Below, in pieces: positions 33,937 through 49,135 of a stretch of DNA of 64,000 nt; position 1 is the stretch's first letter; each line of letters begins with the position of its first letter. Source of the DNA: Xenorhabdus japonica (GTDB lineage Bacteria; Pseudomonadota; Gammaproteobacteria; Enterobacterales; Enterobacteriaceae). A program made the position numbers and the translations under genes. Below the pieces are notes generated by a model. It made no database searches, was not told where the DNA came from, and saw only the letters and a program-made list of their open reading frames with translations. Location: positions 1-64,000 of the forward strand of contig NZ_FOVO01000006.1 in the NCBI RefSeq assembly GCF_900115195.1, written 5' to 3'.

Positions 33937-34055
33937 GTGCCCCCCTAATTCAATGTCCGATTAAATAAATAATCTGTCTTTATTATCATAAAAAGACAGC
34001 AATCAGAATGCTAACCTTTCGAGCCATTACTCACTTATCATCAGAAGAAAAAATC

Positions 34056-35193
34056 ATGCAAACTAAACCATCACTTTGGCTCGCCATTGCCTTGATGATG
34101 TTTCCGCAGATCGTAGAAACTATCTATAGTCCTGCATTAACCAATATTGCTAATGGATTTTTGGTTAGTTCAGAGCAAGCCGCTCAAACATTATCACTCT
34201 ACTTCTTTGCTTTTGCCCTCGGTGTTGTCGTCTGGGGGCGCATGTGTGATGTGATTGGCAGACACCCGACTATCATTGCTGGCCTGTCACTCTATGGCTT
34301 AGTTTCCCTGCTGGTATTGTTAACACAACAATTCTGGTTACTACTCGGCCAGAATGTTGTCTGCTTTCGGCGCAGCAGTTGGCTCTGTCGGTACACAAAC
34401 TATGATGCATGATACTTATCGTGGAGAAGAATTGGCGCGCGTCTTTTCCATCATGGGTATTGCCTTAGCTGCCAGCCCTGCCATTGGTATGCTTAGCGGC
34501 TCAACACTGAACTATTTTGCTGGCTATAAAGCAGTTTTTTCTGGGCTAACCATTTTGGCAATTATCCTGACTGGTTGGTCTATCGCTCGGCTACCAGAAA
34601 CCCAGCCAATTAACGTGACAAAAGTACCTTTATTCAGCACTGCAATCATGATGCTCAAAGATATCTCAATTTGGCGAAATGTATTCTTGATCGCATTTTT
34701 CAATATTTGTTTGTTCAGTTACTACCAATTAGCACCATTCCGTTTTGAACAACTGGGAGTATCACAAGAAACATTTGGTTATACTGGCTTATTAATGACT
34801 TTCGGGGCTGGGCTAGGTTCTTTATTAAACAAATACCTATTAAGACAACAATGGATATCTGCCAAATTAGTCACACTCGCTTCATTGATTAGCCTACTGA
34901 GTGGGAGCGGTGTATACCTACTCGAAAATAGCTGGCTCTTTATTTTTCCAATGTTGGGGATCGTCATCGCTTATGGACTGGCTATTCCAAATATTCTGGC
35001 TTCTGCATTAACCAACTATTCAGAGCAATTAGGCACTGCGGGTGCTTTACTAGGATTGTTTTACTATTTGCTACTGAGCCTTGGTCTAGCATTGGCAGGC
35101 TGGAGTCAAGCATTGGGTTGTGTACTGATTTTTTGTGGGATCGGCATGATTGTTTTGTCCCTTGTTCAAACGTCCCTTTTTAAACAAAGATAA
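34056..35193 (+). pseudogene. Bcr/CflA-like MFS efflux transporter, frameshifted
   Basis: The first frame (34056-34412) gives four to five membrane helices, starting MQTKPSLWLAIALMMFPQIV with the MFS loop GRMCDVIGRHPTI. Around 34350-34375 the reading shifts: the second frame continues LSAFGAAVGSVGTQTMMHDT, the expected next segment of the drug:H+ antiporter family, and runs to 35193. One base (an extra C near GGCCAG) would restore a full protein of about 378 residues. Its divergent regulator is also broken, so the pair has probably lost function. A sequencing error cannot be excluded from sequence alone. Confidence 0.82.
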
Positions 35194-35195
35194 AA

Positions 35196-35234
35196 AGCCC
35201 CCAGCTCCCAAAATGGAAATAAAATCTGGGGGCT
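35196..35234 (-). terminator. Terminator between the MFS pseudogene and ybgI
   Basis: AGCCCCCAG (35196-35204) pairs with CTGGGGGCT (35226-35234), with a T-rich tail on the minus strand just past ybgI. Confidence 0.8.
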
Positions 35235-35241
35235 ATATAGA

Positions 35242-35985
35242 TTAAGCCGGATTAGGAATATCGATGAAAGTCACATCCAACCCATAATTATTCGCCAGCC
35301 ACTCGCCGAGCGCTCTGATACCAAAGCGCTCAGTTGCATGATGCCCCGCAGCAAAAAAATGCAGTCCCATTTCACGGGCAACATGGATAGTCTTTTCTGA
35401 TACTTCTCCCGTCACAAAGGCATCAACACCAAATTCAGCCGCCTGTTCAATAAAACTTTGGCCGCCACCTGTACACCATGCCAGTGTGCGGATTTCTTCT
35501 GGCGCATTATCGCCGCAATACAGAACTTTTCTCTCCAGATTTTTTTCAAGGCGTTCAGTCAATTCTGCGGGCGTAATAGGTTGATCAAAAGCACCATGAG
35601 GAAGAAGAGTATCAATCTCACCTATAACCTTCACACCCATCTGACGTGCCAATTGGGCATTGTTACCCAAAGCAGGATGGGTATCTAACGGGAGATGATA
35701 GCCATACAGGTTGATATCATTGCAGAGTAGTGTTTGCAAACGACGGCGTTTCATGCCGCGGATAACAGGAGATTCATTCTTCCAAAAATATCCATGATGA
35801 ACGATGACAGCATCTGCTTCAAGGCGAACAGCTTCATCTAATAATGCCTGACAAGCTGTCACGCCAGTAATCACCCGCTGAACATGGGAACGACCCTCTA
35901 CCTGTAATCCATTCGGGGCATAGTCTTGAAATTCACGGACTCTCAATTCCGTATTGAGCACATGCTCCAATTCAACATTGTTCAT
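35242..35985 (-). CDS. ybgI: NIF3-family metal-binding protein YbgI
   Basis: Started at MNNVELEHVLNTELRVREFQ, the protein has 247 residues, identical in length to E. coli YbgI; an AAGGGGA site supports this over starts further out. Dinuclear metal ligands are seen in DAVIVHHGYFWK and in the C-terminal AAGHHATERFGIRALGEWL. The family is annotated as GTP cyclohydrolase 1 type 2 homologue/radiation-resistance protein, but the physiological reaction is not settled. Confidence 0.92.
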   Translation of the reverse strand: MNNVELEHVLNTELRVREFQDYAPNGLQVEGRSHVQRVITGVTACQALLDEAVRLEADAVIVHHGYFWKNESPVIRGMKRRRLQTLLCNDINLYGYHLPLDTHPALGNNAQLARQMGVKVIGEIDTLLPHGAFDQPITPAELTERLEKNLERKVLYCGDNAPEEIRTLAWCTGGGQSFIEQAAEFGVDAFVTGEVSEKTIHVAREMGLHFFAAGHHATERFGIRALGEWLANNYGLDVTFIDIPNPA

Positions 35986-36160
35986 CACATTCCCCTTGTT
36001 ACTTAGCCTTTTATTCACCATAAAATACATACCTGCCATGAATTAAGTCAATTCACTCGCCAAATTGCCTATACCCGTCATCTTCCAAGCTAGGCTCGAA
36101 ATAGATTGGATATAAAGATCTTGGGTTATAAATGTACGCCTTAATTACATACAAAACAAA

Positions 36161-36190
36161 ACACCTCGCCAACATAAATCGGCAAGGTGT
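36161..36190 (-). terminator. Probable terminator downstream of ybfA
   Basis: ACACCTCGCC pairs with GGCAAGGTGT (one G-T pair), followed by a TTTTGTTTTGT tail on the minus strand. It lies 140 bases past ybfA. Confidence 0.6.
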
Positions 36191-36200
36191 CAAAACGATA

Positions 36201-36256
36201 TTCAAGGTGCTGTATTCAAGATGCTATATTCAAAGCGCTATATTCAAAATACTCGC
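36201..36256. repeat. 14-bp degenerate tandem repeat, four copies
   Basis: Units TTCAAGGTGCTGTA, TTCAAGATGCTATA, TTCAAAGCGCTATA and TTCAAAATACTCGC run without gaps. They lie in the ybfA 3' region and are similar in style to the arrays at the modC, kdpD and seqA stop codons. Confidence 0.75.
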
Positions 36257-36327
36257 TCAAGCAGAAAAAACCAAGAATGGAAACCTGAGAGACGGGAAAG
36301 GTTATTAGGCTACGTCATAATGCTGTT

Positions 36328-36537
36328 CTAGCGATTTCGAGTACCTGAAGCTATTTCTAAACATTCCAGCCACACTGGCTTATCACTGGTTTTTATCCAT
36401 ACTTTATGCAGATAGCTATAAAAACGGGCCCGATCTCGACGAAACAGCATGACAGGAAGCGCAATGACGCCCAATGATACAGCGCCAATACGCCGTAAGA
36501 GAATCTGGTGCAAAGAGTATTCACGATATATAGACAT
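36328..36537 (-). CDS. ybfA: DUF2517 membrane protein YbfA
   Basis: This 69-residue protein is recognised by [20 protein letters not shown], which matches E. coli YbfA (68 residues). One membrane helix lies near residues 17-32 ([15 protein letters not shown]). A GAGGAGG site precedes the ATG at 36537, so the longer frame to 36576 is rejected. It is divergent from kdpF, as in E. coli. The function is unknown. Confidence 0.88.
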
Positions 36538-36780
36538 TGATATCCTCCTCATGGGCATAACCTGTAAGATGCACAAAATTTTATCTGATAAAGTGAAAAT
36601 TTACCACTCATCCGACCACTTTTTTAGTGGTATAAATCACCTTTTTTTTTAGTTGCGTAATTTAATTACAAAATAATTCTTAAACAGAAACAAAACCAAC
36701 AATTTTAAAACAAAAAATTAACTATGAATTGTTTGCTACACTTGCCTTAATGATACTTTATCGATGAATTCCGCAGGTTA

Positions 36781-36796
36781 TTTATACTTTTTTACA
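36781..36796 (+). promoter_or_regulatory. Candidate KdpE binding site before kdpF
   Basis: TTTATACTTTTTTACA lies 91 bases before kdpF. The E. coli kdpFABC operator for KdpE, as remembered, is TTTATACTTTTTTTACA, one T longer. The match is very close although the cognate regulator gene is deleted here. A possible -10 (TATGCT) follows near 36839. Confidence 0.65.
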
Positions 36797-36886
36797 CTTT
36801 TAGGAACTCTTTTAACAGCTTCTTTGTATGGTCATTCCTATGCTGTAACCGACTATTTCTTAAAGAAATAAGCAAGGAGATAAACC

Positions 36887-36976
36887 ATGAATATATACCT
36901 AATCCTTGGCATTTTTCTGGTGACGCTATTACTGGGCTATCTAATTTATGCGTTGATGAATGCGGAGGATTTCTAA
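36887..36976 (+). CDS. kdpF: K+-transporting ATPase small subunit KdpF
   Basis: This is a 29-residue single-helix peptide containing LLLGYLIYALMNAEDF, against VLLVFLLLGYLVYALINAEAF-type E. coli KdpF of equal length. It stabilises the KdpABC complex. An AAGGAG site precedes it, and its stop is directly followed by the kdpA ATG. Confidence 0.95.
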   Translation: MNIYLILGIFLVTLLLGYLIYALMNAEDF

Positions 36977-38677
36977 ATGGCAGCATCAGCTTTTTTACTG
37001 ATTACCAGCTTCTTACTCATACTGGTTCTATTGAGCAAGCCTCTTGGCAATCTGATCGCCAGACTCGTCGAAGGAGAATTGCCTCGCTGGCTGACAAAAA
37101 CAGAAATCATTCTATGGCGTTGTTGTGGCCTGCAAAAACCCGGCCACGATGTCAAAGAAATGAACTGGTGGCAGTATGCACTTACGATCTTCATATTCAA
37201 TATAGCGGGGCTATTGCTCCTGTTTACCCTGCTGATCAGCCAAAGTCACTTGCCATTGAATCCACAACATTTTGCTGGTATGAAATGGGATCTGGCACTG
37301 AATACCGCAATCAGTTTTATTACTAATACTAATTGGCAGGCTTATAGCGGAGAAAATACCCTCAGTTACCTGAGCCAAATGGCCGGATTGACTGTTCAGA
37401 ATTTTCTGTCTGCGGCAACTGGCATTTCTGTGGCTTTTGCCTTGATGCGGGCGTTTTATCGCCAAAGCACGAAAACCGTGGGAAATGCGTGGATTGACAT
37501 CACACGTATTACTTTATATCTTTTACTTCCGCTTGCGATCATCCTTGCCTTGTTCTTTGTCAGTCAAGGTGTTATCCAAAATTTCTCTTCCTATGTACTC
37601 ACCCACTCGCTTGAAGGACAACAGCAATTAATTCCTATGGGGCCAGTTGCTTCTCAAGAGGCCATAAAACTTCTGGGCACCAATGGCGGAGGATTTTTTG
37701 GGGCAAACTCAGCCCACCCATTTGAAAATCCAACTTCACTCAGTAACTTTGTCCAAGTCCTGGCTATTTTCTTGATCCCCTGTGCATTATGTTTCGCATT
37801 CGGCCTGGTTGTTGGAGACAATCGCCAGGGATATGCTCTGCTCTGGGCAATGAGCATTGTTTTCATTATTGCCGCCAGTATAGTGATGTATGCCGAAACC
37901 GCAGATAACCCTCATCTCATCCAGTCCAATATCAGTAACCACTTTTTTAATATGGAAGGAAAAGAATCCCGCTTTGGTATCCTTGCCTCTTCCCTTTATG
38001 GCGTTGTTACGACAGCCGCTTCCTGTGGTGCCGTAAATGCAATGCATGATTCTTTTACTCCGCTAGGCGGCATGATACCGCTCTGGTTGATGCAAATTGG
38101 TGAAGTCATATTCGGTGGGGCTGGTTCTGGTCTTTATGGCATATTGTTGTTCGTCCTGCTTGCCGTATTTATTGCAGGTTTGATGATTGGCCGGGCACCA
38201 GAATACTTAGGTAAAAAAATTGATATCCATGATATGAAAATGGTCGCACTGGCGATTTTAGTTACCCCTTCGCTTGTTTTATTGGGAACTTCTCTGGCTA
38301 TTTCAATCGACGCAGGTCGCAACGCTATTGCAAATCCCGGCGCCCACGGCTTCACTGAAGTACTTTATGCTTTCTCATCCGCAGCCAATAACAACGGGAG
38401 TGCCTTTGCCGGACTAGATGCCAACAGTGTCTTTTATAACCTGCTGTTGGGGGTAACCATGTTTCTTGGGCGTTTTGGCATCATTCTGCCTGTTCTGGCC
38501 ATCGCTGGTTCCATGGTTAACAAAAAACGCCAGCCTATTAGCAATGGCAGCTTACCGACCCACGGTTCCCTCTTTATTGGATTATTAATTCTGGTCATTT
38601 TACTGATCGGTGCTCTCACGTTTATTCCTGCCCTAGCTCTTGGCCCTATCGCAGAACACCTACAACTTTGGCCATGA
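36977..38677 (+). CDS. kdpA: K+-transporting ATPase subunit KdpA
   Basis: This 566-residue polytopic protein (E. coli 557) has about ten membrane helices. It selects K+; selectivity-filter regions are [48 protein letters not shown] and [14 protein letters not shown]. The four pore repeats look complete. It is the second gene of the operon, with no gap after kdpF. Confidence 0.97.
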
Positions 38678-38708
38678 GAGTTGAGGTAAAAAGAGTGCGA
38701 GGTAAGAT

Positions 38709-40775
38709 ATGAAAAATAAACCACAAGTATTATTTGAACCGACTTTGATTCTCCAGGCACTTATCGACTCGTTAAAAAAATGCCATCCGGCTCAACAATG
38801 GCGAAATCCGGTCATGTTCGTTGTTTATGTCGGAAGTTGCCTGACCACCGCATTATGGATTGGCATATTAATAGGGCAATTAACGGGCAATATGCTATTT
38901 ACCGGAGCCATTGTGCTCTGGTTATGGATTACCGTACTGTTTGCCAACTTCGCAGAAGCACTGGCGGAAGGACGTAGTAAAGCCCAAGCATCCAGCCTGA
39001 AAAATATAAAAAAAACCAGTTGGGCGATCAAACTAGCATCATCCAGCCGTGAAGCCGTAAAAGAAAAAGTCACTTCTGACACTTTGCGTAAAGGGGACAT
39101 CGTGCTGGTGGAGGCAGGAGAAACCATTCCTTGTGATGGTGAAATCCTTGAAGGAGGGGCTTCCGTTGATGAAAGCGCCATTACAGGAGAGTCTGCACCA
39201 GTTATCCGCGAATCAGGGGGTGATTTTTCCTCTGTCACTGGAGGTACGCGAGTTTTATCAGATTGGCTAATCGTCGAATGTACAGTCAATCCGGGCGAAA
39301 CCTTTTTAGACAGAATGATTTCAATGGTTGAAGGGGCTAAGCGACGTAAAACACCAAATGAAATAGCCCTCACCATTTTACTTACTGCACTAACCATTAT
39401 TTTCTTGCTGGTCTGTGTAAGCCTTCTGCCTTTTTCCTTGTTCAGCGTCCAAGCCAATCAATCTGGCGCGCCCATTACACTCACTGTATTGATTGCCTTA
39501 TTGGTTTGCCTGATCCCCACCACCATTGGCGGATTATTGTCAGCCATTGGTGTTGCCGGTATGAGCCGCATGTTGGGAGCCAATATCATCGTCACCAGCG
39601 GACGCGCTATTGAAGCCGCTGGAGATGTGGATGTCCTGCTACTCGATAAAACTGGCACTATCACACTCGGAAACCGTCAGGCATCTCAATTTTTACCTGC
39701 TCCGGGCGTAACAGAGCGACAGTTAGCTGATGCTGCCCAACTCTCTTCTTTTGCAGATGAAACACCGGAAGGGCGCAGCATCGTAATCTTGGCAAAACAA
39801 CGTTTCAATATGCGTGAGCGAGATCTTCGAGAATTAAAAGCCACATTCGTTCCTTTCTCTGCCATGACACGCATGAGCGGAGTCAATATTGATAATCGCA
39901 TGATCCGCAAAGGCGCTGTCGATGCTATTCGTCGCTATATTGAAGCCAACCACAGTCATTTCCCTGATGAGATTGATCATTTGGTACAGCAAGTCGCATA
40001 TAAAGGAGGAACACCATTGGTTGTTGCTGAAAATCAGCAGGTCTTGGGGGTCGTCGCCTTAAAAGATATTGTGAAAGGCGGGATTAAAGAACGCTTCACT
40101 GAAATGCGCAAAATGGGAATCAAGACCGTCATGATTACAGGTGATAATCACCTTACTGCTGCAGCCATTGCAGCCGAAGCGGGCGTTGATGATTTTCTGG
40201 CAGAAGCCACTCCCGAAGCGAAACTCGCCCTGATCCGCCAATATCAGTCTGAAGGGCGTCTGGTTGCCATGACTGGCGATGGTACAAACGATGCACCAGC
40301 GCTGGCACAAGCAGATGTTGCCGTTGCTATGAATTCAGGTACACAGGCAGCAAAAGAAGCAGGCAATATGGTTGACTTGGATTCCAACCCTACCAAGTTG
40401 ATTGAAGTTGTACATATTGGCAAACAGATGCTAATGACCCGCGGTGCTTTGACAACATTCAGTATTGCCAATGATATTGCTAAATATTTCGCCATCATTC
40501 CCGCCGCTTTTTCGGTTACGTATCCACAACTTAATGCATTGAACATCATGCACCTTCATTCTTCGGAATCTGCGGTACTGTCTGCTGTTATTTTCAATGC
40601 GATAATCATAATCTTTCTACTGCCATTGGCACTGAAAGGCGTCAGCTACCGCCCAATGAACGCATTGTCACTCTTGCGCCGAAACCTATGGATATATGGT
40701 CTTGGCGGTTTGCTTATACCTTTTATCGGCATTAAGCTCATTGATATATTGCTCACTGCCTTAATTTTTAACTGA
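38709..40775 (+). CDS. kdpB: K+-transporting ATPase subunit KdpB
   Basis: This P-type ATPase has 688 residues (E. coli 682). The phosphorylated aspartate lies in [12 protein letters not shown] near residue 312. The actuator motif is [10 protein letters not shown], and the hinge is [17 protein letters not shown]. It energises K+ uptake through KdpA. All P-type motifs are intact, so the pump should be active if expressed. Confidence 0.97.
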
Positions 40776-40831
40776 CGATCTTTAATTAATCTGCATTTAA
40801 ATAATCAGGCCTTCAAATAAGGTGATGAAAA

Positions 40832-41413
40832 ATGATCTGGTTACGTTCTTCCATTATTCTGCTGACATTTCTTAGCGTAATCACTGGCATAGCCTATCCA
40901 TTATTGGTGACAGGAATATCAGGATTTTTATTTCCTCATCAAGCTAAAGGATCGCTAATAGAGCAGAATGGCAAACTCGTTGGCTCTGAATTAATTGGTC
41001 AAAATTTTACTAAACCCATCTATTTTCATGGCCGCCCTTCCATGACGACCGAGAAACCGTATAACACTCTGTCATCAGGGGGTAGTAATCTCGCTATGAC
41101 CAATCCTGAACTGAAAAACAAAATAGACCAAAACATTATCCGGGTAAGTTTATTCAATCATCCGCAAAAATATCCGATCCCCGTTGATTTAATCATGGCA
41201 TCCGGTAGCGGACTCGATCCCCATATATCCCCAGAAGCCGCTGAATTTCAGGCATCACGTGTAGCGGTAGCCCGTAACATATCACCCGAAGTCATTCATA
41301 AACTCATTGAGCAGCATATTCAACATCCCCTGCTGGAATATATGGGAAGGCCTATAGTCAATGTACTGGAGCTGAACCTAGCATTGGATAACCTAGACCC
41401 ACAAGGCAAATAA
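40832..41413 (+). CDS. kdpC: K+-transporting ATPase subunit KdpC
   Basis: The protein has 193 residues (E. coli 190), with one N-terminal membrane helix (SSIILLTFLSVITGIAYPLL) and a periplasmic domain containing GQNFTKPIYFHGRPS, SGSGLDPHISPEAAEFQ and PLLEYMGRPIVNVLELNLAL. It assists assembly and K+ binding of the pump. It lies 56 bases after kdpB and three bases before kdpD. Confidence 0.96.
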   Translation: MIWLRSSIILLTFLSVITGIAYPLLVTGISGFLFPHQAKGSLIEQNGKLVGSELIGQNFTKPIYFHGRPSMTTEKPYNTLSSGGSNLAMTNPELKNKIDQNIIRVSLFNHPQKYPIPVDLIMASGSGLDPHISPEAAEFQASRVAVARNISPEVIHKLIEQHIQHPLLEYMGRPIVNVLELNLALDNLDPQGK

Positions 41414-41416
41414 TAT

Positions 41417-44131
41417 ATGGTGCAAAACGAGCCAAAACGCCCCGATCCTGATGACTTACTGATACTGGCAAACGAAAAACCACGTGGCAAACTAAAAATA
41501 TTTTTCGGTGCTTGTGCGGGTGTCGGTAAAACTTACGCCATGCTGCAAGAAGCTCAACGGTTGCTGGCACAAGGGTTAGATGTCATTGTCGGCATTGTTG
41601 AAACCCATGATCGACAAGAAACCGCAGCCCTACTTAAAGGGTTGCCCCAATTACCACCAAAATATTTCCACTACCATCAGCGCAGGATAGCAGCATTTGA
41701 TATTGATGCAGCCCTTGCCCGCCATCCGGCCATTATTTTGATGGACGAACTGGCATTCAGTAACCCTAAAGACTGCCGCCATCCGAAACGCTGGCAAGAT
41801 ATAGAAGAATTATTGGAAGCCGGCATTGATGTACTGACTACCATCAATGTGCAGCATTTGGAAAGTTTGAATGATGTTGTCGGTGGTATTACCGGTATTC
41901 GTGTTCAGGAAACCATTCCCGACCATATATTTGATCAGGCCGATGATGTTGTTCTGGTTGATCTGCCTCCTGATGATCTGCGTCAGCGGCTCAATGATGG
42001 CAAGGTTTATATTTCAAGTCAGGCTGAGCGTGCCATTGAACATTTTTTTCGCAAAGGAAATCTGATTGCCCTGCGTGAATTGGCACTACGTTGCACGGCA
42101 GATCGCGTAGATGAGCAAATGCGCGCTTTTCGTGATACCAGAGGAAAAGAATCCGTATGGCATACGCGAGAAAATTTGTTGCTATGTATTGGCTATAGCG
42201 CAGGTAATGAAAAACTGATTCGGAAAGCCGCTCGCTTGGCAGCAAAACTCAATTGCATCTGGCATGCTGTTTATGTTGAAACTCCCAAATTACACCAACT
42301 GCCAGAAAGCAAACGACGTACTATCTTACAAGCCTTGAAACTGGCCCAAGATTTGGGAGCTGAAACCGCAACACTCTCCGATTCCCATGAAGAAAACGCA
42401 ATCCTGCACTACGCCAGAGAGCATAATCTGGGGAAAATCCTTATTGGCCGCTATTACGATTCCCATTCAACTCTCTTTGGCTTTAAATGGCGCAGTGACT
42501 TTTCAGAACGACTGGGAAAACTCGGCCCTGATTTAGATCTGATTATTGTTGCGTTGGAAGATAAAAAACGCGGGGACAAAGAACCAAAAGATAACCGAAC
42601 ATTCTATGACAAATGGCGAGTCCCGACTCAGGGCTTTTTGATGGCAATTGTACTCTGTGCCCTCATTACTCTTTTTTCCCGGACGTTCTTGTTGACTCTT
42701 GATAAAGCCAACTTAGTGACACTCTACATGCTCGGCGTTGTCATCATCGCCCTGTTTTATGGTCGTTGGCCATCCGTCTTTGCCGCTTTCATCAATGTCA
42801 TCAGTTTCGACATTTTCTTTGTCCAGCCACACTGGTCATTGGCAGTCAAGGATATGCAATATTTGCTCACACTGACTGTAATGCTGATTGTCGGGGCTGT
42901 TGTCGGAAACCTCACCGCAGGCATACGCTATCAGGCCAGAATAGCCCGTTATCGCGAACAGCGAACACGACATCTATATGAAATAACTCGCGAATTGAGC
43001 AAGGCCCTGAACGAAGAAGACATAGCCCGTATCAGCTATCATTTTCTATCCAATAGTTTTCAGGCAAAAACGGGGTTACTGCTGCCAGATAGCGGCCATC
43101 ATTTATATCAAGTGAAATCCAGCAATGGTGGTCAAATGCAAATTGACGAAGCGATTGCCAAATGGTGTTTTGATAAAAAACAACCGGCTGGGGCAGGCAC
43201 TGACACATTACCGGGAGTATCTTACCAACTATTGCCGATCGCCACACCTTCGCAGGTCTTTGCCGTTCTTGCCATTGAATCCCCTAACCTGCGCCAATTA
43301 TTGATACCGGAACAACAAAGGTTATTACAAATTTTCACAGGACTCATCGCCAACGCACTGGAGCGATTACACCTTGCACGCAGCACAGAATCCGCCAAAC
43401 TGGAAACTGAGCGGGAGCAATTGCGTAATTCATTGTTGGCAGCGTTATCCCACGATTTACGTACTCCGTTAACCGTACTATTCAGGCAATCAGAAATACT
43501 GATGTTGGATCTATCCGCCGAAAATTCGCCGCATATACAAAAAGTTAACCAAATTCGCCAGCAAATCCTCAGCACTTCACGACTGGTCAATAACCTGCTT
43601 GATATGGCACGGCTCCAATCAGGTGGCATTCAGCTCAATCTTGAATGGTATTCACTGGACGAAATTGTCGGCAATGCCTTGCGTTCTCTGGAATATACCC
43701 TCAATCGTTGCACAGTAGAGCTTTCCTTGCCCAACAATTTATTACTACACTGTGATGCCGTTTTACTGGAACGTGTTTTTTTCAATCTGCTGGAAAACGC
43801 TATTAAATACACCAATGAACAGACTCCCTTGGGCATACAAGCCACAATAGAGAAGAAAACCCATCAAAAACAGGTGCATATTGAAGTCTGGGATGCGGGA
43901 ACAGGAATTCCATCAGGGCAAGAAAAACTTATTTTTAATAAATTCTCCCGCGTCAACAAAGAATCAGCTATATCTGGTGTCGGGCTAGAATTGGCGATCT
44001 GCCGATCTATTATTGAAATCCACGGCGGAAAGATATGGGCGGCTAACAATAAAAAAGGTGGAGCTAGTTTTCATTTTATTCTTCCGTTGGAAGATCCACC
44101 CAAAATTGAAAATGCTTTCAAGGATATGTGA
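41417..44131 (+). CDS. kdpD: Sensor histidine kinase KdpD, with altered G2 box
   Basis: The protein has 904 residues (E. coli 894). The N-terminal KdpD domain has Walker-type GACAGVGKTYAML, then a universal-stress-protein-like domain, four membrane helices (about residues 400-500), a GAF-like region and the kinase core. The phospho-acceptor His lies in LAALSHDLRTPLTVL, the N box is NLLENAIKYT and G1 is DAGTGIP. The G2 box reads GVGLELAI where E. coli has GVGLGLAI, a Gly-to-Glu change at codon 43988-43990 (residue 858) that may weaken ATP-lid function. Its partner KdpE is reduced to a stub immediately downstream, so the sensor is orphaned here. Confidence 0.93.
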   Translation: MVQNEPKRPDPDDLLILANEKPRGKLKIFFGACAGVGKTYAMLQEAQRLLAQGLDVIVGIVETHDRQETAALLKGLPQLPPKYFHYHQRRIAAFDIDAALARHPAIILMDELAFSNPKDCRHPKRWQDIEELLEAGIDVLTTINVQHLESLNDVVGGITGIRVQETIPDHIFDQADDVVLVDLPPDDLRQRLNDGKVYISSQAERAIEHFFRKGNLIALRELALRCTADRVDEQMRAFRDTRGKESVWHTRENLLLCIGYSAGNEKLIRKAARLAAKLNCIWHAVYVETPKLHQLPESKRRTILQALKLAQDLGAETATLSDSHEENAILHYAREHNLGKILIGRYYDSHSTLFGFKWRSDFSERLGKLGPDLDLIIVALEDKKRGDKEPKDNRTFYDKWRVPTQGFLMAIVLCALITLFSRTFLLTLDKANLVTLYMLGVVIIALFYGRWPSVFAAFINVISFDIFFVQPHWSLAVKDMQYLLTLTVMLIVGAVVGNLTAGIRYQARIARYREQRTRHLYEITRELSKALNEEDIARISYHFLSNSFQAKTGLLLPDSGHHLYQVKSSNGGQMQIDEAIAKWCFDKKQPAGAGTDTLPGVSYQLLPIATPSQVFAVLAIESPNLRQLLIPEQQRLLQIFTGLIANALERLHLARSTESAKLETEREQLRNSLLAALSHDLRTPLTVLFRQSEILMLDLSAENSPHIQKVNQIRQQILSTSRLVNNLLDMARLQSGGIQLNLEWYSLDEIVGNALRSLEYTLNRCTVELSLPNNLLLHCDAVLLERVFFNLLENAIKYTNEQTPLGIQATIEKKTHQKQVHIEVWDAGTGIPSGQEKLIFNKFSRVNKESAISGVGLELAICRSIIEIHGGKIWAANNKKGGASFHFILPLEDPPKIENAFKDM

Positions 44132-44185
44132 GTACCACTAATGTGAGTACCACTAACGTGAATACAGTTAATATCAATACGATCA
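44126..44185. repeat. 15-bp tandem repeat at the kdpD stop / kdpE deletion junction
   Basis: ATGTGAGTACCACTA occurs twice exactly (44126-44140 and 44141-44155). Two degenerate units follow: ACGTGAATACAGTTA and ATATCAATACGATCA. The kdpD TGA stop (44129-44131) lies inside the first unit. The last unit runs into the kdpE remnant. Confidence 0.8.
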
Positions 44186-44267
44186 AAAACCAGAAACCGA
44201 CCCCGCTTGTCCTAAGCATTTACTGACAGAAACAGGAATCGGTTATCGATTTATGTCTGACGAGTGA
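44172..44267 (+). pseudogene. kdpE: kdpE 3' remnant (response regulator)
   Basis: In one frame this stretch reads DQKPETDPACPKHLLTETGI followed by GYRFMSDE and a stop at 44265-44267. E. coli KdpE ends QKLEQDPARPRHFITETGI-GYRFML, so this is the last 25-30 codons of kdpE. The receiver domain and nearly all of the winged-helix domain (about 200 codons) are missing, and a 15-bp repeat array occupies the junction with kdpD. In E. coli kdpE overlaps the kdpD stop. Confidence 0.82.
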
Positions 44268-44313
44268 ATAACGTATTCAGGCTCAAGAGGATCAAACAAT
44301 TTGCCTGATTACG

Positions 44314-47262
44314 TTATTTCCTGCGAACAGGCAAACCTGTTCCACGAATCCCTTCTTGTGGCAAAACCAATACGGCTGCCGACCATGCAGGCATTATTAC
44401 CTCGCCATTTTCTGTTATTCTCACCCCCGCAGCCAAAGATGCCTTATCCAATTCACGTTGAATATCATTTAATTTCAACCCGTTGATATTAAGATCTTTG
44501 ACAGTCACAGACCAAGGTGCGGCATTAATAGCAACTACCAAGCCATCAAACCGCCAATCACGATCACTCTGGGTCATATTGCCATCATCAATCGTCATTA
44601 TCAGTAAACCCATTTGCTGGTGGGGGCCAACATTAACAAAATCGACACGTTGCCTGATAGCAGCACCATCACCAAGAGTCATCAATGGTGAAAATTGACG
44701 TAACCGCAATAGCTCCTGATAAAACGCCATCATCTGTAATAATTCATTTTGACTTGGTTTTTTCACCTGATTCTTCACACGATAAATCAATGGATAATTC
44801 TTGCCATCATTACTGTATTCGGGTAGCCCTACATCATAATTATTGTCTTTATAGCTATAACTAACACGATTAAACCAATCACCAGCGTCATAGGAATCGC
44901 GGGTAAAGGATTTTGAACGCAATAATTCTGAACCCTGTTGATCGAAAGCCAAACCTTGTCCAAGAAATACCGTAGCAAGAGAGATCGCCTGCATACGAAC
45001 CCTCGTCATCAGACTCGCTTCATAGGCAGCTTTATAGTTGATAATGTCCCACAATGTTTGATTATCGTGCTTGGATACATAATTCAGCACTTCAATCGGA
45101 TCTAACGCATAACCCGCAGCAGTCCCCTTGTAATCAATTTCGCTGCCTGTTTTCACTGCCCCATCTTTATCGATCATGACAAAATCAGCCAAATTGCCAA
45201 CCATGCCAATACGTACCAAATCCCATAAATGACGAACGTTATCCGCATCTAATCTGGAAATTTCATTAGGCAATATTTCAGCACCATTGCCTACTCCCTG
45301 ATTACTGCGAATACTATCGGCTACATCAAATGGCCCGCCGCCACGTACCGCATCCCGTAGCCTGTCAGAGAACGTACCAATGCCTGTCCCCTTAAGATTG
45401 AGCTGAGAAGCGGTTTCGAATCGATCATCCTGCCCAGAATTCCACCCCTCTCCGAAAAAGTAGATCGATGGATTAATAGCTCGCACTTTTTCTAGTGCCG
45501 ATAGAATTTGTACTTTGGGGTGGTAAGCCATTAAATCAAATCGAAACGCATCTATCTTATAATCTTTAACCCACGTCACCAGCGAATCTTCGATCAATTT
45601 GGCAAACATGCGACGTTCCGGCGCAGTGTCAGAACAACAAGTATTATTTTCAACCTTGCCTGTTATTTCATCCAAACGGTGGTAATACCAAGGCACTATC
45701 TTATCCAACACCGACGTTCTGGCTGTCGGGCCTGCCGTATTAGTATGGTTATAGGCAACATCCATGATCACATTCATGCCCAAGTGTTGCTTGATAGCCT
45801 GTACCATGGCACGAAATTCTTTTATGCGGCCGGAACCTTCCGGATTAGTGGCGTAAGAACCTTCCGGCACTGAATAGTGAAATGGATCGTAACCCCAGTT
45901 ATAGGAATCAGTTTTTGCCACTAGCGTATTTAGTTCTTGCACCTGCGGATTATTGATATTGTCATCACGCAGCAATTCCTGCAAAACCTCCCGCACGGTC
46001 AATGAACTATGACAATAATCGGCAAAACGACTGTTTTTAACCATTGGATTGATTTGACACAGACGACTAAAAGGGTGTTCAAGGTCAGCCACCTGCTGGC
46101 TAAATTCATTAACAGAAGCAATATCAAATACAGGCAGCAACTCCATATGAGTCATTCCAGCCTGACTCAACGCCTTAAGATGCTTGAACATATCACTGTT
46201 ATTATCAGTCAGTGCCAGATACTTACCACGCCAGGCTTCTGGTATCGTACTGTCTGCAACGGAAAGATCACGGATATGCGCTTCATAGATAGTCATACGT
46301 GCAATATCCGTCGGTGTATTTTGTGAGTGCGGCACCAACAGATTATTCCAGTTTAGTGGCTTCAGGGATTCATCATCCAGATTGACGACCTGACTGTATT
46401 CCGAATTAGTAGACAGGCTGTAAGAATAAGGATCAGTAGCCTCATAGTGTTCCACATTGCGAGATTGCGGGTGGTAAACCTGTAAATCATAGCGGTAATA
46501 AGTGCCAATCAACTCCTTACCACCTTGCCATGACCAAGAACCACTCGCTGCGTCACGTTGCATTGTGTGATTGGCGATAGCCTGTTTATTTTGATCATAA
46601 ATAACCAAACCGACATTTTGTGCCGTGGGTGCCCACAACCTGAAAATCACGCCCTTATTATTTATCCGCGCCCCATATTCCAATTTATCGGCAGCATCAG
46701 AGAAACGATCATCCAGCACACCAGCCGTTTGTACTTGGGTTGCCGATAGAAATATGCCTTGCTCGTTGGCCGACAAAACTACCAAATCCCCGGTCAGCAG
46801 TCGATCAATATCCACATTCTCAGGTAAACGAAAAGCCGCCCACTTCGCCAGATGAGGGAATTTTTTTGCTGTTTCCTGACTTAAAATCGTCGGTGTGAGC
46901 GTCAAATAGCTATCAGTAAAATAACCTTGGTCATTGACCTCCACCTTATTATTTTGGTTGTAATATAGGCGAACAATAAATTTACCTTCATCACCTGACC
47001 ACGTTTTATTGTCTGACAATAATAACGTCTGTCTATCAACCCAGTGAGCAGAAGCTTGAGAAATTACGGATTCAAAATCAGCAATTCCTGTACGGTGGAG
47101 ATAGATGTGTTGACTATCTGATAACTGATCCAAGCTATGTACCATCACTTTCTCCTGATTTTTCAACAAGTCAGTTTTATTTGGAATGCAATGTGCCAGT
47201 AATGAAATCAATAACCCGCAACCTAAAATAAGGTAAATCTTTCTCCAAAAGTCAGATTTCAT
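44314..47262 (-). CDS. pulA: Pullulanase-type alpha-1,6-glucosidase (GH13)
   Basis: This 982-residue protein cleaves alpha-1,6 branches of pullulan, starch or glycogen dextrins. Its start is the ATG at 47262; an upstream TTG adds two codons. A hydrophobic N-terminal segment (YLILGCGLLISLLAHC, residues 10-25) serves as signal or anchor. An N-terminal beta-rich region and the pullulanase N2/CBM48-like module (INNKGVIFRLWAPTAQNVGL) precede the GH13 barrel. The barrel holds nucleophile Asp in DAFRFDLM (about 572), acid/base Glu in FFGEGWNSG (about 604) and the third acid in SKHDNQTLWD (about 731). The cysteine context is not a good lipobox (His before Cys), unlike lipidated Klebsiella PulA. It converges on the kdpE stub. 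Confidence 0.9.
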   Translation of the reverse strand: MKSDFWRKIYLILGCGLLISLLAHCIPNKTDLLKNQEKVMVHSLDQLSDSQHIYLHRTGIADFESVISQASAHWVDRQTLLLSDNKTWSGDEGKFIVRLYYNQNNKVEVNDQGYFTDSYLTLTPTILSQETAKKFPHLAKWAAFRLPENVDIDRLLTGDLVVLSANEQGIFLSATQVQTAGVLDDRFSDAADKLEYGARINNKGVIFRLWAPTAQNVGLVIYDQNKQAIANHTMQRDAASGSWSWQGGKELIGTYYRYDLQVYHPQSRNVEHYEATDPYSYSLSTNSEYSQVVNLDDESLKPLNWNNLLVPHSQNTPTDIARMTIYEAHIRDLSVADSTIPEAWRGKYLALTDNNSDMFKHLKALSQAGMTHMELLPVFDIASVNEFSQQVADLEHPFSRLCQINPMVKNSRFADYCHSSLTVREVLQELLRDDNINNPQVQELNTLVAKTDSYNWGYDPFHYSVPEGSYATNPEGSGRIKEFRAMVQAIKQHLGMNVIMDVAYNHTNTAGPTARTSVLDKIVPWYYHRLDEITGKVENNTCCSDTAPERRMFAKLIEDSLVTWVKDYKIDAFRFDLMAYHPKVQILSALEKVRAINPSIYFFGEGWNSGQDDRFETASQLNLKGTGIGTFSDRLRDAVRGGGPFDVADSIRSNQGVGNGAEILPNEISRLDADNVRHLWDLVRIGMVGNLADFVMIDKDGAVKTGSEIDYKGTAAGYALDPIEVLNYVSKHDNQTLWDIINYKAAYEASLMTRVRMQAISLATVFLGQGLAFDQQGSELLRSKSFTRDSYDAGDWFNRVSYSYKDNNYDVGLPEYSNDGKNYPLIYRVKNQVKKPSQNELLQMMAFYQELLRLRQFSPLMTLGDGAAIRQRVDFVNVGPHQQMGLLIMTIDDGNMTQSDRDWRFDGLVVAINAAPWSVTVKDLNINGLKLNDIQRELDKASLAAGVRITENGEVIMPAWSAAVLVLPQEGIRGTGLPVRRK

Positions 47263-47437
47263 AGTCAAACCCTTTTAATGAAAGATAACAGTAATCCTTT
47301 AACTTTTAATAAAAATAAAAACAGTGATTAAATAGGGGAATAAGCACTCTTACCTCATCCTTTTATTAATAAAAATGGGGATGAGAATAAAGGATGAATT
47401 ATTTTTTGATGTATATCCAATAGATTTGCGGCGGCAA

Positions 47438-47472
47438 CAAAAAAGCCGTAGCAATTGCTACGACTTTTTTTC
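47438..47472. terminator. Terminator after pgm
   Basis: The palindrome CGTAGCAATTGCTACG is flanked by AAAAAAGC and ACTTTTTTT, giving T-runs on both strands. It lies 23 bases past pgm and before the pulA promoter region. Confidence 0.85.
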
Positions 47473-47494
47473 CATTCAGAAACAGGGGGTTCAA

Positions 47495-49135
47495 TCAACC
47501 AGCAGCAAATACCTGATTAACGATTTCCTGTGCTTCTTGCTCAATTTTTTCCCGATGTTCCGCACCGAGGAAACTTTCGCAATAGATTTTATAGGCCTCT
47601 TCCGTGCCAGAAGGGCGGGCAGCAAACCAGCCATTATCACTCATTACTTTCAGGCCACCAATGGAAGCGCCATTACCCGATGCGGTTGTCAGGCGAGCGG
47701 TAATCGGATCGCCTGCCAATACATCGGCCTTGACCATTTCTGGTGACAGCTTAGACAACAATGCTTTTTGCTGATGAGTAGCCGGAGCCTGAATGCGACT
47801 ATAGCTTGGTGTACCAAATCTGGCAGCCAGTTTGTCGTAACGTTGCTGTGGATTCTCACCGGTAATTGCGGTCATTTCAGCAGCTAACAAACAAAGGATG
47901 ATGCCATCTTTATCGGTTGACCACGGAGTGCCATCAAAACGCAGGAAAGATGCACCAGCACTTTCTTCTCCACCAAAGCCCAACTCGCCTTTATATAATC
48001 CATCCACAAACCATTTAAAACCGACGGGAACTTCTACTAATTCACGTCCCAAATCAGCGACAACCCGATCAATCATGGCGCTGGAAACCAGTGTTTTACC
48101 CACGGCGATATTTTCAGGCCATTGAGGACGGTGGCGGAATAAGTAATCCACAGCCGTTGCCAAATAATGGTTAGGATTCATCAAACCCGTTGGTGTAATA
48201 ATCCCGTGACGGTCATAATCGGGATCATTGGCAAAGGCCAAATCAAATTTACCACGCAGCTCCAACAATCCTGCCATTGCCCAACGAGATGAACAATCCA
48301 TGCGGATCACACCGTCATGATCCAGTGTCATAAAACGGAATGTCTGATCGATCTTATCATTAACCAGTGTCAGATCGAGATCGTAATATTCCCCAATCCG
48401 TTGCCAGTAAGCAATCCCGGAACCACCCAGCGGATCGATACCAATTTTCAAACCGGCTTTCTGGATCGCTGCCATATCCACCACTTCACCCAGCGCAGTA
48501 ACATAAGGATCAATCAAATCTTGAGGATGCAGGCATTCACTTTTTAATGCCAATTCATAAGGCTGTCGCTTGATCCCGTTGAGATCGTTCGCCAGTAATT
48601 CATTGGCGCGCTGTTCAATAATTGCAGTCAGATCGGTATCGGCAGGCCCGCCGTTGGGGGGATTATATTTAATGCCGCCATCTTCTGGTGGATTGTGGGA
48701 GGGCGTGATCACTATCCCATCTGCTAGATTTTTCCCCTGACGGTTGTAGCATAAGATGGCATGAGAAATAGCAGGAGTCGGTGTGAATCCATTATTTTCC
48801 TGCACAATCACATCCATGCCGTTCGCCGTTAATACCTCCAATACAGAGATAAATGCTGCTTCTGAAAGCGCATGGGTATCTTTACCCACATAGCATGGCC
48901 CAGTAATCCCATGTTGCGAACGAACTTCGACAATAGCCTGAGAAATAGCCAAAATATGCGATTCGTTGAAACTATTGCGTCCAGAACTGCCACGATGACC
49001 AGAAGTGCCGAATTTGACTTTATGTGCTGGATTTTCAGGATGTGGTTGTAAGGTGTAATACTGTGAAGTGAGTTGGGCAACATTAATTAAATCATGCTGC
49101 TGGGCGAGTTGCCCTGCTCTTGAATGAATTACCAC
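47495..49135 (-). CDS. pgm: Phosphoglucomutase (alpha-D-glucose phosphate-specific)
   Basis: Pgm interconverts glucose 1- and 6-phosphate. No ATG fits the family N-terminus. A GTG at 49135, preceded by AGGAG, gives [19 protein letters not shown], colinear with E. coli MAIHNRAGQ, and exactly 546 residues. The phosphoserine loop is [17 protein letters not shown], the metal loop [11 protein letters not shown], the sugar loop [14 protein letters not shown] and the phosphate-binding loop [10 protein letters not shown]. It lies downstream of seqA on the same strand, as in E. coli. Confidence 0.95.

Follow-up and report, generated by a model that had tools for sequence, protein, structure and literature searches.

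A described relative of the system treated here is the KdpD protein of Escherichia coli, a tandem serine/histidine kinase (Silberberg et al. 2024, PMC11018627). According to excerpts of that paper, its N-terminal domain stops the pump at high K+ by phosphorylating Ser162 of the pump subunit KdpB; the Walker A motif is required for this reaction, but His673 and the DHp and CA domains (DHpCA) are dispensable. The biochemical demonstration of this serine-kinase role dates from 2024, and the case for its importance in nature was built on counts of domains in distantly related phyla: across 5,495 species, KdpDs without the response regulator KdpE were mostly also without histidine-kinase (HK) domains, as in Campylobacterota, Archaea, and short KdpD/Usp forms such as that of D. 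geothermalis (PMC11018627). A kdpE pseudogene beside a kdpD is also described for Francisella tularensis SchuS4, but the kdpA of that strain is likewise given as a pseudogene (PMC6584805). Here we describe the kdpFABCD operon in the first 64,000 nucleotides of contig NZ_FOVO01000006.1 of Xenorhabdus japonica (GCF_900115195.1), a stretch referred to below as the window, in which kdpE has been reduced to a stub. Xenorhabdus are insect-killing bacteria, and our sample comprised 30 genomes of the genus, with that of the window (G000) counted among them.

The window locus shares with E. coli its operon order, the KdpD domains, Walker A and B, R190, and the KdpB TGES motif; it differs in having no KdpE, in alterations of the HK motifs and the operator, and in a Tyr for W39 that occurs in all 30 Xenorhabdus. 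With the KdpE-less species of other phyla it has in common the absence of KdpE and the retention of the serine-kinase domain. The HK domains of those proteins are truncated or gone, whereas 20 of 21 KdpE-less Xenorhabdus KdpDs are still full length, and the loss of KdpE was repeated within one genus. The short D. geothermalis form uses c-di-AMP, but a diadenylate cyclase was not found in the 30 Xenorhabdus genomes (0/30). In contrast to F. tularensis, the Xenorhabdus pump is intact and constrained.

A preliminary description of this locus, made from the window alone, had kdpE cut to its last ~27 codons, an observation that comparison with relatives partly confirmed. The 3' end is as described, with positions 44184 to 44267 encoding QKPETDPACPKHLLTETGIGYRFMSDE*, a 75% match to residues 201 to 224 of E. 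coli KdpE. However, about 20 codons of the 5' end survive as well, and the four 15-bp units taken for intergenic repeats after kdpD are 5' codons of kdpE itself, which starts with a GTG at 44128 that overlaps the kdpD stop. In X. yunnanensis (G012), a whole kdpE of 247 codons lies at the same position and starts with VSTTNVNTANISTIKNSKILIIEDE, with three 15-bp units against four in the window. Compared with this gene, the window carries a 619-bp internal deletion between two CAAAAAC heptamers; since 619 mod 3 is 1, translation from the GTG covers only 32 codons and ends at 44226. A comparable stub, with a different junction, is present in X. anantnagensis (G002). The stub is real when set against the intact gene of a sister species, although both ends of kdpE remain and not the 3' end alone, and no intact KdpE response regulator was found in the window genome. 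An origin of the stub as a duplicated fragment was rejected, given the entire kdpE at the same place in X. yunnanensis. The N-terminal tail of KdpE consists of variable 15-bp units (VSTTNV-like) that vary from one species to another (L009, L011, L012, L024, and window positions 44128 to 44190).

A search for an intact kdpE elsewhere in the window genome found none. Across the genus, KdpE orthologs were present in 9 of the 30 genomes (E ≤ 6.4e-102; 68 to 71% to E. coli KdpE), including X. yunnanensis, X. vietnamensis, X. hominickii, X. szentirmaii, X. mauleonii, and X. lircayensis; no ortholog was found in the other 21, in which the best match was 1.6e-39 or weaker, the level of paralogues. Each of the 30 genomes has kdpABC and a kdpD (partial in G017). 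The species with an intact KdpDE system have the same locus as the window, with a pulA-type gene downstream, but differ from it in their whole kdpE, a 7-T operator, and unchanged HK motifs. Remnants of kdpE were detected within the first 170 bases 3' of kdpD in five of the 21 KdpE-less genomes (G000, G002, G018, G027, and, weakly, G007). A pulA-type gene follows kdp in Xenorhabdus outside a clade of six genomes (clade II); it was not found in the stretches examined for clade II (loci L116 to L120), where the next known gene after kdpD is pgm.

The loss of kdpE has occurred repeatedly within Xenorhabdus. Its presence or absence implies six changes on a gyrB+rpoB tree (bootstrap, five to six) and six on a kdpABC tree, with five forced by well-supported branches in each; counted as losses only, the numbers are six and seven. 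X. yunnanensis, with its intact kdpE, is sister to the stub-bearing X. anantnagensis on the gyrB+rpoB tree (support 100/97). A group of ten genomes has support of just 81/54 on that tree, and the kdpABC tree places one member, G014, apart from the other nine. For the possibility that X. yunnanensis re-acquired kdpE, instead of separate losses in G000 and G002, the flanks gave no sign of an imported tract; shared sites in kdpD number 91 for G012-G002, 42 for G012-G000, and 47 for G002-G000, and those in the stub plus the downstream stretch 17, 8, and 4, respectively. Divergence between G012 and G019 is lower over kdpE (6 to 8%) than over windows of kdpD (9 to 13%), which could reflect constraint or exchange. 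Because of this low divergence and because the kdpABC tree does not resolve the relationship of G000, G002, and G012 (55/8), the two stubs may still go back to a single loss common to G000 and G002.

Constraint was compared with a codon model (our own script) using neutral branch lengths from all four genes and the gyrB+rpoB topology, with branches classed as KdpE-bearing (21), carrying a loss (6), or wholly post-loss (30). Omega did not differ between KdpE-bearing and post-loss branches for kdpA (0.100 and 0.102, respectively; P = 0.67), kdpB (0.056 and 0.050; P = 0.19), kdpC (0.203 and 0.200; P = 0.71), the atypical serine-kinase domain (ASK; KdpD residues 1 to 223; 0.067 and 0.060; P = 0.49), or the USP domain (residues 224 to 394; 0.110 and 0.102; P = 0.54). 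In contrast, omega rose from 0.036 to 0.150 in DHp (P = 1e-9) and from 0.109 to 0.249 in CA (P = 5e-14). For the HK module as a whole (DHp plus CA), this was a 2.5-fold relaxation, from 0.085 to 0.216 (P = 3e-21), with a value of 0.327 on the branches carrying a loss. The domain rate scale was fixed at 1 in these fits; results were unchanged when it was left free (HK, P = 3e-21; ASK, P = 0.48) or when the kdpABC tree was used instead (HK, P = 8e-20; ASK, P = 0.47). By group, omega of the HK module was 0.257 in clade II and 0.212 in the ten-genome group.

A second measure, based on positions that do not vary among E. coli and 12 KdpE-bearing genomes, gave a similar split. The mean proportion of these positions changed per KdpE-less genome was 0.4% in ASK, 13.7% in DHp, and 9.9% in CA, against ~0.5%, ~0.6%, and ~1.2% in a leave-one-out control over nine KdpE-bearing Xenorhabdus, averaged from counts. 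The reading frames of kdpABC are open in KdpE-less genomes except for a kdpA frameshift in G009, in which gyrB is frameshifted too. The two frameshifts of G009 (L116, L156; single contig) suggest sequencing errors rather than decay.

The conserved motifs divide along the same line. Walker A GKT, Walker B DE, and R190 of KdpD and the TGES motif of KdpB are kept in 30/30 Xenorhabdus; in the window, Walker A reads GACAGVGKT, and the motifs expected of an atypical serine kinase and of its substrate are in place together with intact KdpA, KdpB, and KdpC subunits. In the HK module, for which 12 residues per KdpD were surveyed, 19 of the 21 KdpE-less genomes and none of the nine KdpE-bearing ones carry a change at one or more motif residues. 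The most common change is R676L, in 15 genomes; with R676 left aside, 11 of the 21 are changed. The phosphorylated His673 is lost in three genomes, G002, G007, and G025 (the changes are H673R, which is that of G002, H673D, and H673Q), G1/G2 residues are altered in six (G000, G005, G014, G015, G018, and G021), and G017 has lost the CA domain. The window KdpD keeps His673 and the N and G1 boxes, but its G2 box reads GLEL (G848E). It has both HisKA and HATPase_c and so falls outside the serine-kinase-only class, defined by absent or truncated HK domains, but it may work like that class.

The binding site for KdpE has changed as well. Excerpts of PMC3264566 describe the E. coli site as AT-rich 6-bp half-sites with a 5-bp spacer. 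Both half-sites, TTTATA and TTTACA, persist before kdpF in the window, as the preliminary description had noted, but the site is altered, with a spacer of 4 bp, 1 bp shorter than the 7-T form found in 9/9 KdpE-bearing Xenorhabdus. The operator core TTTATACTTTTTTTA is exact in 9/9 KdpE-bearing and 4/21 KdpE-less genomes (G005, G018, G026, and G029), counts that did not change when 900 bp upstream of kdpA was searched; an inexact operator may still be able to bind KdpE. In X. koppenhoeferi (G007, L113), the operator is substituted and an insertion of ~150 bp separates the conserved kdp promoter region, pushed upstream, from kdpF, and kdpABC are still open. No new constitutive promoter after KdpE loss was apparent from a home-made sigma70 score (7.4 versus 6.8; P = 0.77). 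Among known RNA families and riboswitches, window positions 34000 to 48000 gave just one chance-level match, below its gathering score.

Considered together, these comparisons make it probable that KdpE-less Xenorhabdus still use the Kdp pump and that KdpD is kept as a post-translational brake while the transcriptional arm erodes. Xenorhabdus lineages would repeatedly drop kdpE, and hence KdpE-dependent induction of kdpFABC, yet keep the pump. KdpD would be kept for its N-terminal Walker-motif serine kinase, which would phosphorylate KdpB Ser162 at high K+ and shut the pump off, and the HK module and the KdpE operator, having lost their main function, would then erode. We infer that serine-kinase activity is present in Xenorhabdus, that kdp is expressed without KdpE, constitutively or in some other KdpE-independent way, and that K+ control is left to the brake and acts through the retained TM/GAF domains. 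The window genome would represent a fairly early stage, with kdpE deleted out of frame, the operator shortened by 1 bp, and KdpD carrying G848E, and the genus an earlier stage of the path that ends in HK-less KdpDs. A stronger version, for which we see nearly an even chance, is that after five to seven independent KdpE losses the HK module is being turned into a pseudo-kinase, impaired in catalysis but preserved in structure, through which the serine kinase is gated, with K+ uptake by Kdp governed by post-translational braking alone. As to other K+ uptake systems, TrkH was found in 30/30 Xenorhabdus genomes, with at least two matches each, and Kup (PF02705) in 0/30, with E. coli positive as a control.

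Several results weigh against a clean division of KdpD into a kept and a discarded half. Omega of the TM/GAF region (residues 395 to 660) rises slightly (0.079 to 0.098; P = 0.04), so the split is not all-or-none, and invariant positions are changed more often than in the control in USP (2.1% versus ~0.7%), TM (4.1% versus ~1.3%), and GAF (3.0% versus ~1.3%); the middle domains of KdpD are slightly looser after KdpE loss, and the serine-kinase domain is not. On the branch leading to the window, omega is elevated in ASK plus USP (0.175 versus 0.083; 2dlnL 4.3) and TM/GAF (0.190 versus 0.089; 2dlnL 3.0) as well as in HK (0.386 versus 0.174; 2dlnL 5.6), but not in kdpABC (2dlnL 1.2). Given this mild rise over all of KdpD, the protein may be relaxed throughout in the window species. 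The KdpE-less G026 and G027 show no relaxation of the HK module (omega, 0.090). Elsewhere the module is far from neutral: for clade II and the ten-genome group, a fixed omega of 1 gives a much poorer fit (2dlnL 172 to 367), and ~68 nonsense changes would be expected under neutrality, by a rough estimate, against one truncation seen. A structural or residual signalling role of the module in KdpE-less lineages is therefore likely. In clade II, R676L apart, all six genomes retain the N, G1, and G2 residues and five of the six retain His673, and the KdpDs of this clade may have residual kinase function. At the position of the adenine-contact residue W39 of E. coli, every one of the 30 Xenorhabdus, with or without KdpE, has a Tyr, and W39 was mutated only jointly with R190 in the E. 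coli experiments excerpted from PMC11018627; we treat Tyr39 as a natural aromatic variant, and the Xenorhabdus proteins as putative members of the serine-kinase class only for the motifs they carry. Finally, independent supported pairs of lineages gave four differences in the expected direction, none contrary, and one without difference for the HK motifs, and 4.2, 0, and 0.8 for the operator (n = 5 each), and sign tests with five pairs cannot reach P = 0.05.

The preliminary description had offered two explanations, another regulator driving the operon or an operon that is silent and starting to decay, and had not considered a second, KdpE-independent job for KdpD; its interpretation is partly supported. 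Decay of the whole operon, with kdpE the first gene to go, would fit the deleted kdpE, altered operator, and changed G2 box of the window, as well as the mild rise in omega over its entire KdpD. We nevertheless hold it to be very unlikely, as omega of kdpA, kdpB, kdpC, and ASK is equal with and without KdpE over the 30 post-loss branches and kdpABC remain open in KdpE-less genomes apart from the G009 frameshift; it is the HK half of KdpD that erodes, together with the KdpE operator, and not the pump. A draft genome of 92 contigs might suggest something simpler, namely that the stub is an assembly or sequencing artefact. With kdpE absent from 20 further genomes, some of them in one or two contigs (G014, G017, and G029), and a similar stub with another junction in X. 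anantnagensis, this is scarcely credible.

A replacement regulator is a different matter, since the KdpD histidine kinase could have been rewired to another response regulator, with changes in DHp reflecting new partner specificity. Such rewiring would agree with an HK-module omega well below 1, with the retention of His673 (5/6) and of the ATP-binding motifs (6/6) in clade II, and with the finding that the partner-facing DHp changes most in that clade (0.243 versus 0.036). On the other hand, His673, CA, or G1/G2 residues are lost or altered in the genomes listed above, and no other regulator driving the operon was identified: the window genome has seven matches to the OmpR-type DNA-binding domain, the class surveyed, whose best families are the ordinary PhoB, BaeR, OmpR, CpxR, ArcA, PhoP, and TctD (PhoP just below threshold, at 331.4 bits against a cutoff of 336), and none adjoins the stub, where the next gene is of pulA type. 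We therefore consider rewiring unlikely. An explanation that refines the post-translational brake rather than replacing it is that the HK module serves as a catalytically dispensable structural relay, a pseudo-kinase through which the K+ signal of TM/GAF reaches the serine kinase. The intermediate omega of KdpE-less lineages (DHp, 0.10 to 0.24; CA, 0.27), with omega = 1 far worse, and the full-length frame of nearly all their KdpDs point to such a relay; moreover, with no diadenylate cyclase found, the input that short KdpDs take from c-di-AMP seems to be unavailable, and TM/GAF would have to go on sensing K+. Set against this, G017 lives without CA, and E. coli KdpD without DHpCA still phosphorylates KdpB (excerpts of PMC11018627), and we regard the relay only tentatively, as somewhat less than an even chance.

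The repeated losses of KdpE in Xenorhabdus, some of them recent and with KdpE-bearing sister species, provide replication within a single genus. Two halves of one protein part ways, one keeping its constraint as the other relaxes, and this split lends evolutionary support to the serine-kinase role. It suggests that the sensor KdpD is now mainly a direct brake on the pump in most Xenorhabdus examined. How kdp is expressed and controlled without KdpE, a question left by the 2024 paper, becomes testable among close relatives, and, if the pseudo-kinase reading is true, Xenorhabdus would be a genus in mid-conversion of a tandem serine/histidine kinase to a one-armed enzyme. For annotation, a full-length kdpD beside kdpFABC is not evidence of a working KdpDE system. 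Excerpts of two further papers make no mention of KdpE loss: PMC3091717 merely names kdpE as a gene at plastic regions, and the other, PMC2266911, concerns Photorhabdus.

The features of the window locus are listed in Table 1. As the preliminary description had stated, kdpFABCD is complete, with kdpF, kdpA, kdpB, kdpC, and kdpD all intact open frames at 36887 to 44131.

Table 1. Features of the X. japonica kdp locus in window coordinates
Feature	Position	Strand	Basis
KdpE operator remnant TTTATA-CTTT-TTTACA, spacer one T short	36781..36796	+	Sequence; comparison with KdpE-bearing Xenorhabdus
kdpF, 29 aa	36887..36976	+	Sequence
kdpA, K+ channel-like subunit, intact	36977..38677	+	Pfam KdpA, E = 1.5e-237
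kdpB, P-type ATPase subunit, TGES motif (Ser162 site, E. coli numbering)	38709..40775	+	Open reading frame, Pfam, motif
kdpC, intact	40832..41413	+	Pfam KdpC, E = 1.5e-70
kdpD, 904 aa, full-length open frame	41417..44131	+	Open reading frame, Pfam
KdpD N-terminal domain (atypical serine kinase in E. coli)	41483..42109	+	Pfam KdpD, residues 23-231
KdpD histidine-kinase module	43424..44092	+	HisKA 670-736, HATPase_c 780-892
Codon GAA, G2 box GLGL to GLEL (G848E, E. coli numbering)	43988..43990	+	Alignment
5' kdpE remnant, GTG start overlapping kdpD stop, four 15-bp units, 3' end CAAAAAC	44128..44190	+	Comparison with intact kdpE
Deletion junction, 7-bp microhomology CAAAAAC	44184..44190	+	Comparison with X. 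yunnanensis
3' kdpE remnant, final 27 codons plus stop, out of frame with 5' remnant	44184..44267	+	Translation, E. coli KdpE match

Outside Xenorhabdus, the KdpE-less kdpD state is rare. In a wider survey of 149 family genomes, with KdpD and KdpE listings compared by eye, the KdpD N-terminal region was found in 79, of which 76 had a KdpE match at E ≤ 1e-55 (partial in G080, G156, and G189). The three without a match were G000 and G005, both Xenorhabdus, and G132, so that 76 of 77 KdpD-bearing genomes outside the genus have one. G132 was considered as support from outside the genus and dropped, as its 6.8-kb stretch at a contig end yielded neither kdpA nor kdpB. Its KdpD (L199; 1.6-Mb genome) is cut near residue 642, with DHp and CA gone and no KdpE, and a transposase-like frame, judged by eye, lies beside kdpC near the contig end, at the expected position of kdpB. 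In G156 (L200), several frame changes across kdpA, kdpB, and kdpD accompany the shortened kdpE match, from either operon decay or poor sequence. An early in-frame TGA interrupts the otherwise full-length kdpD of G032 (L125), whose kdpE is open. Upstream of the operon in the window, an MFS-like transporter gene (judged by eye; positions 34008 to 35193, + strand) is split into two overlapping frames of 134 and 279 aa, as if frameshifted.

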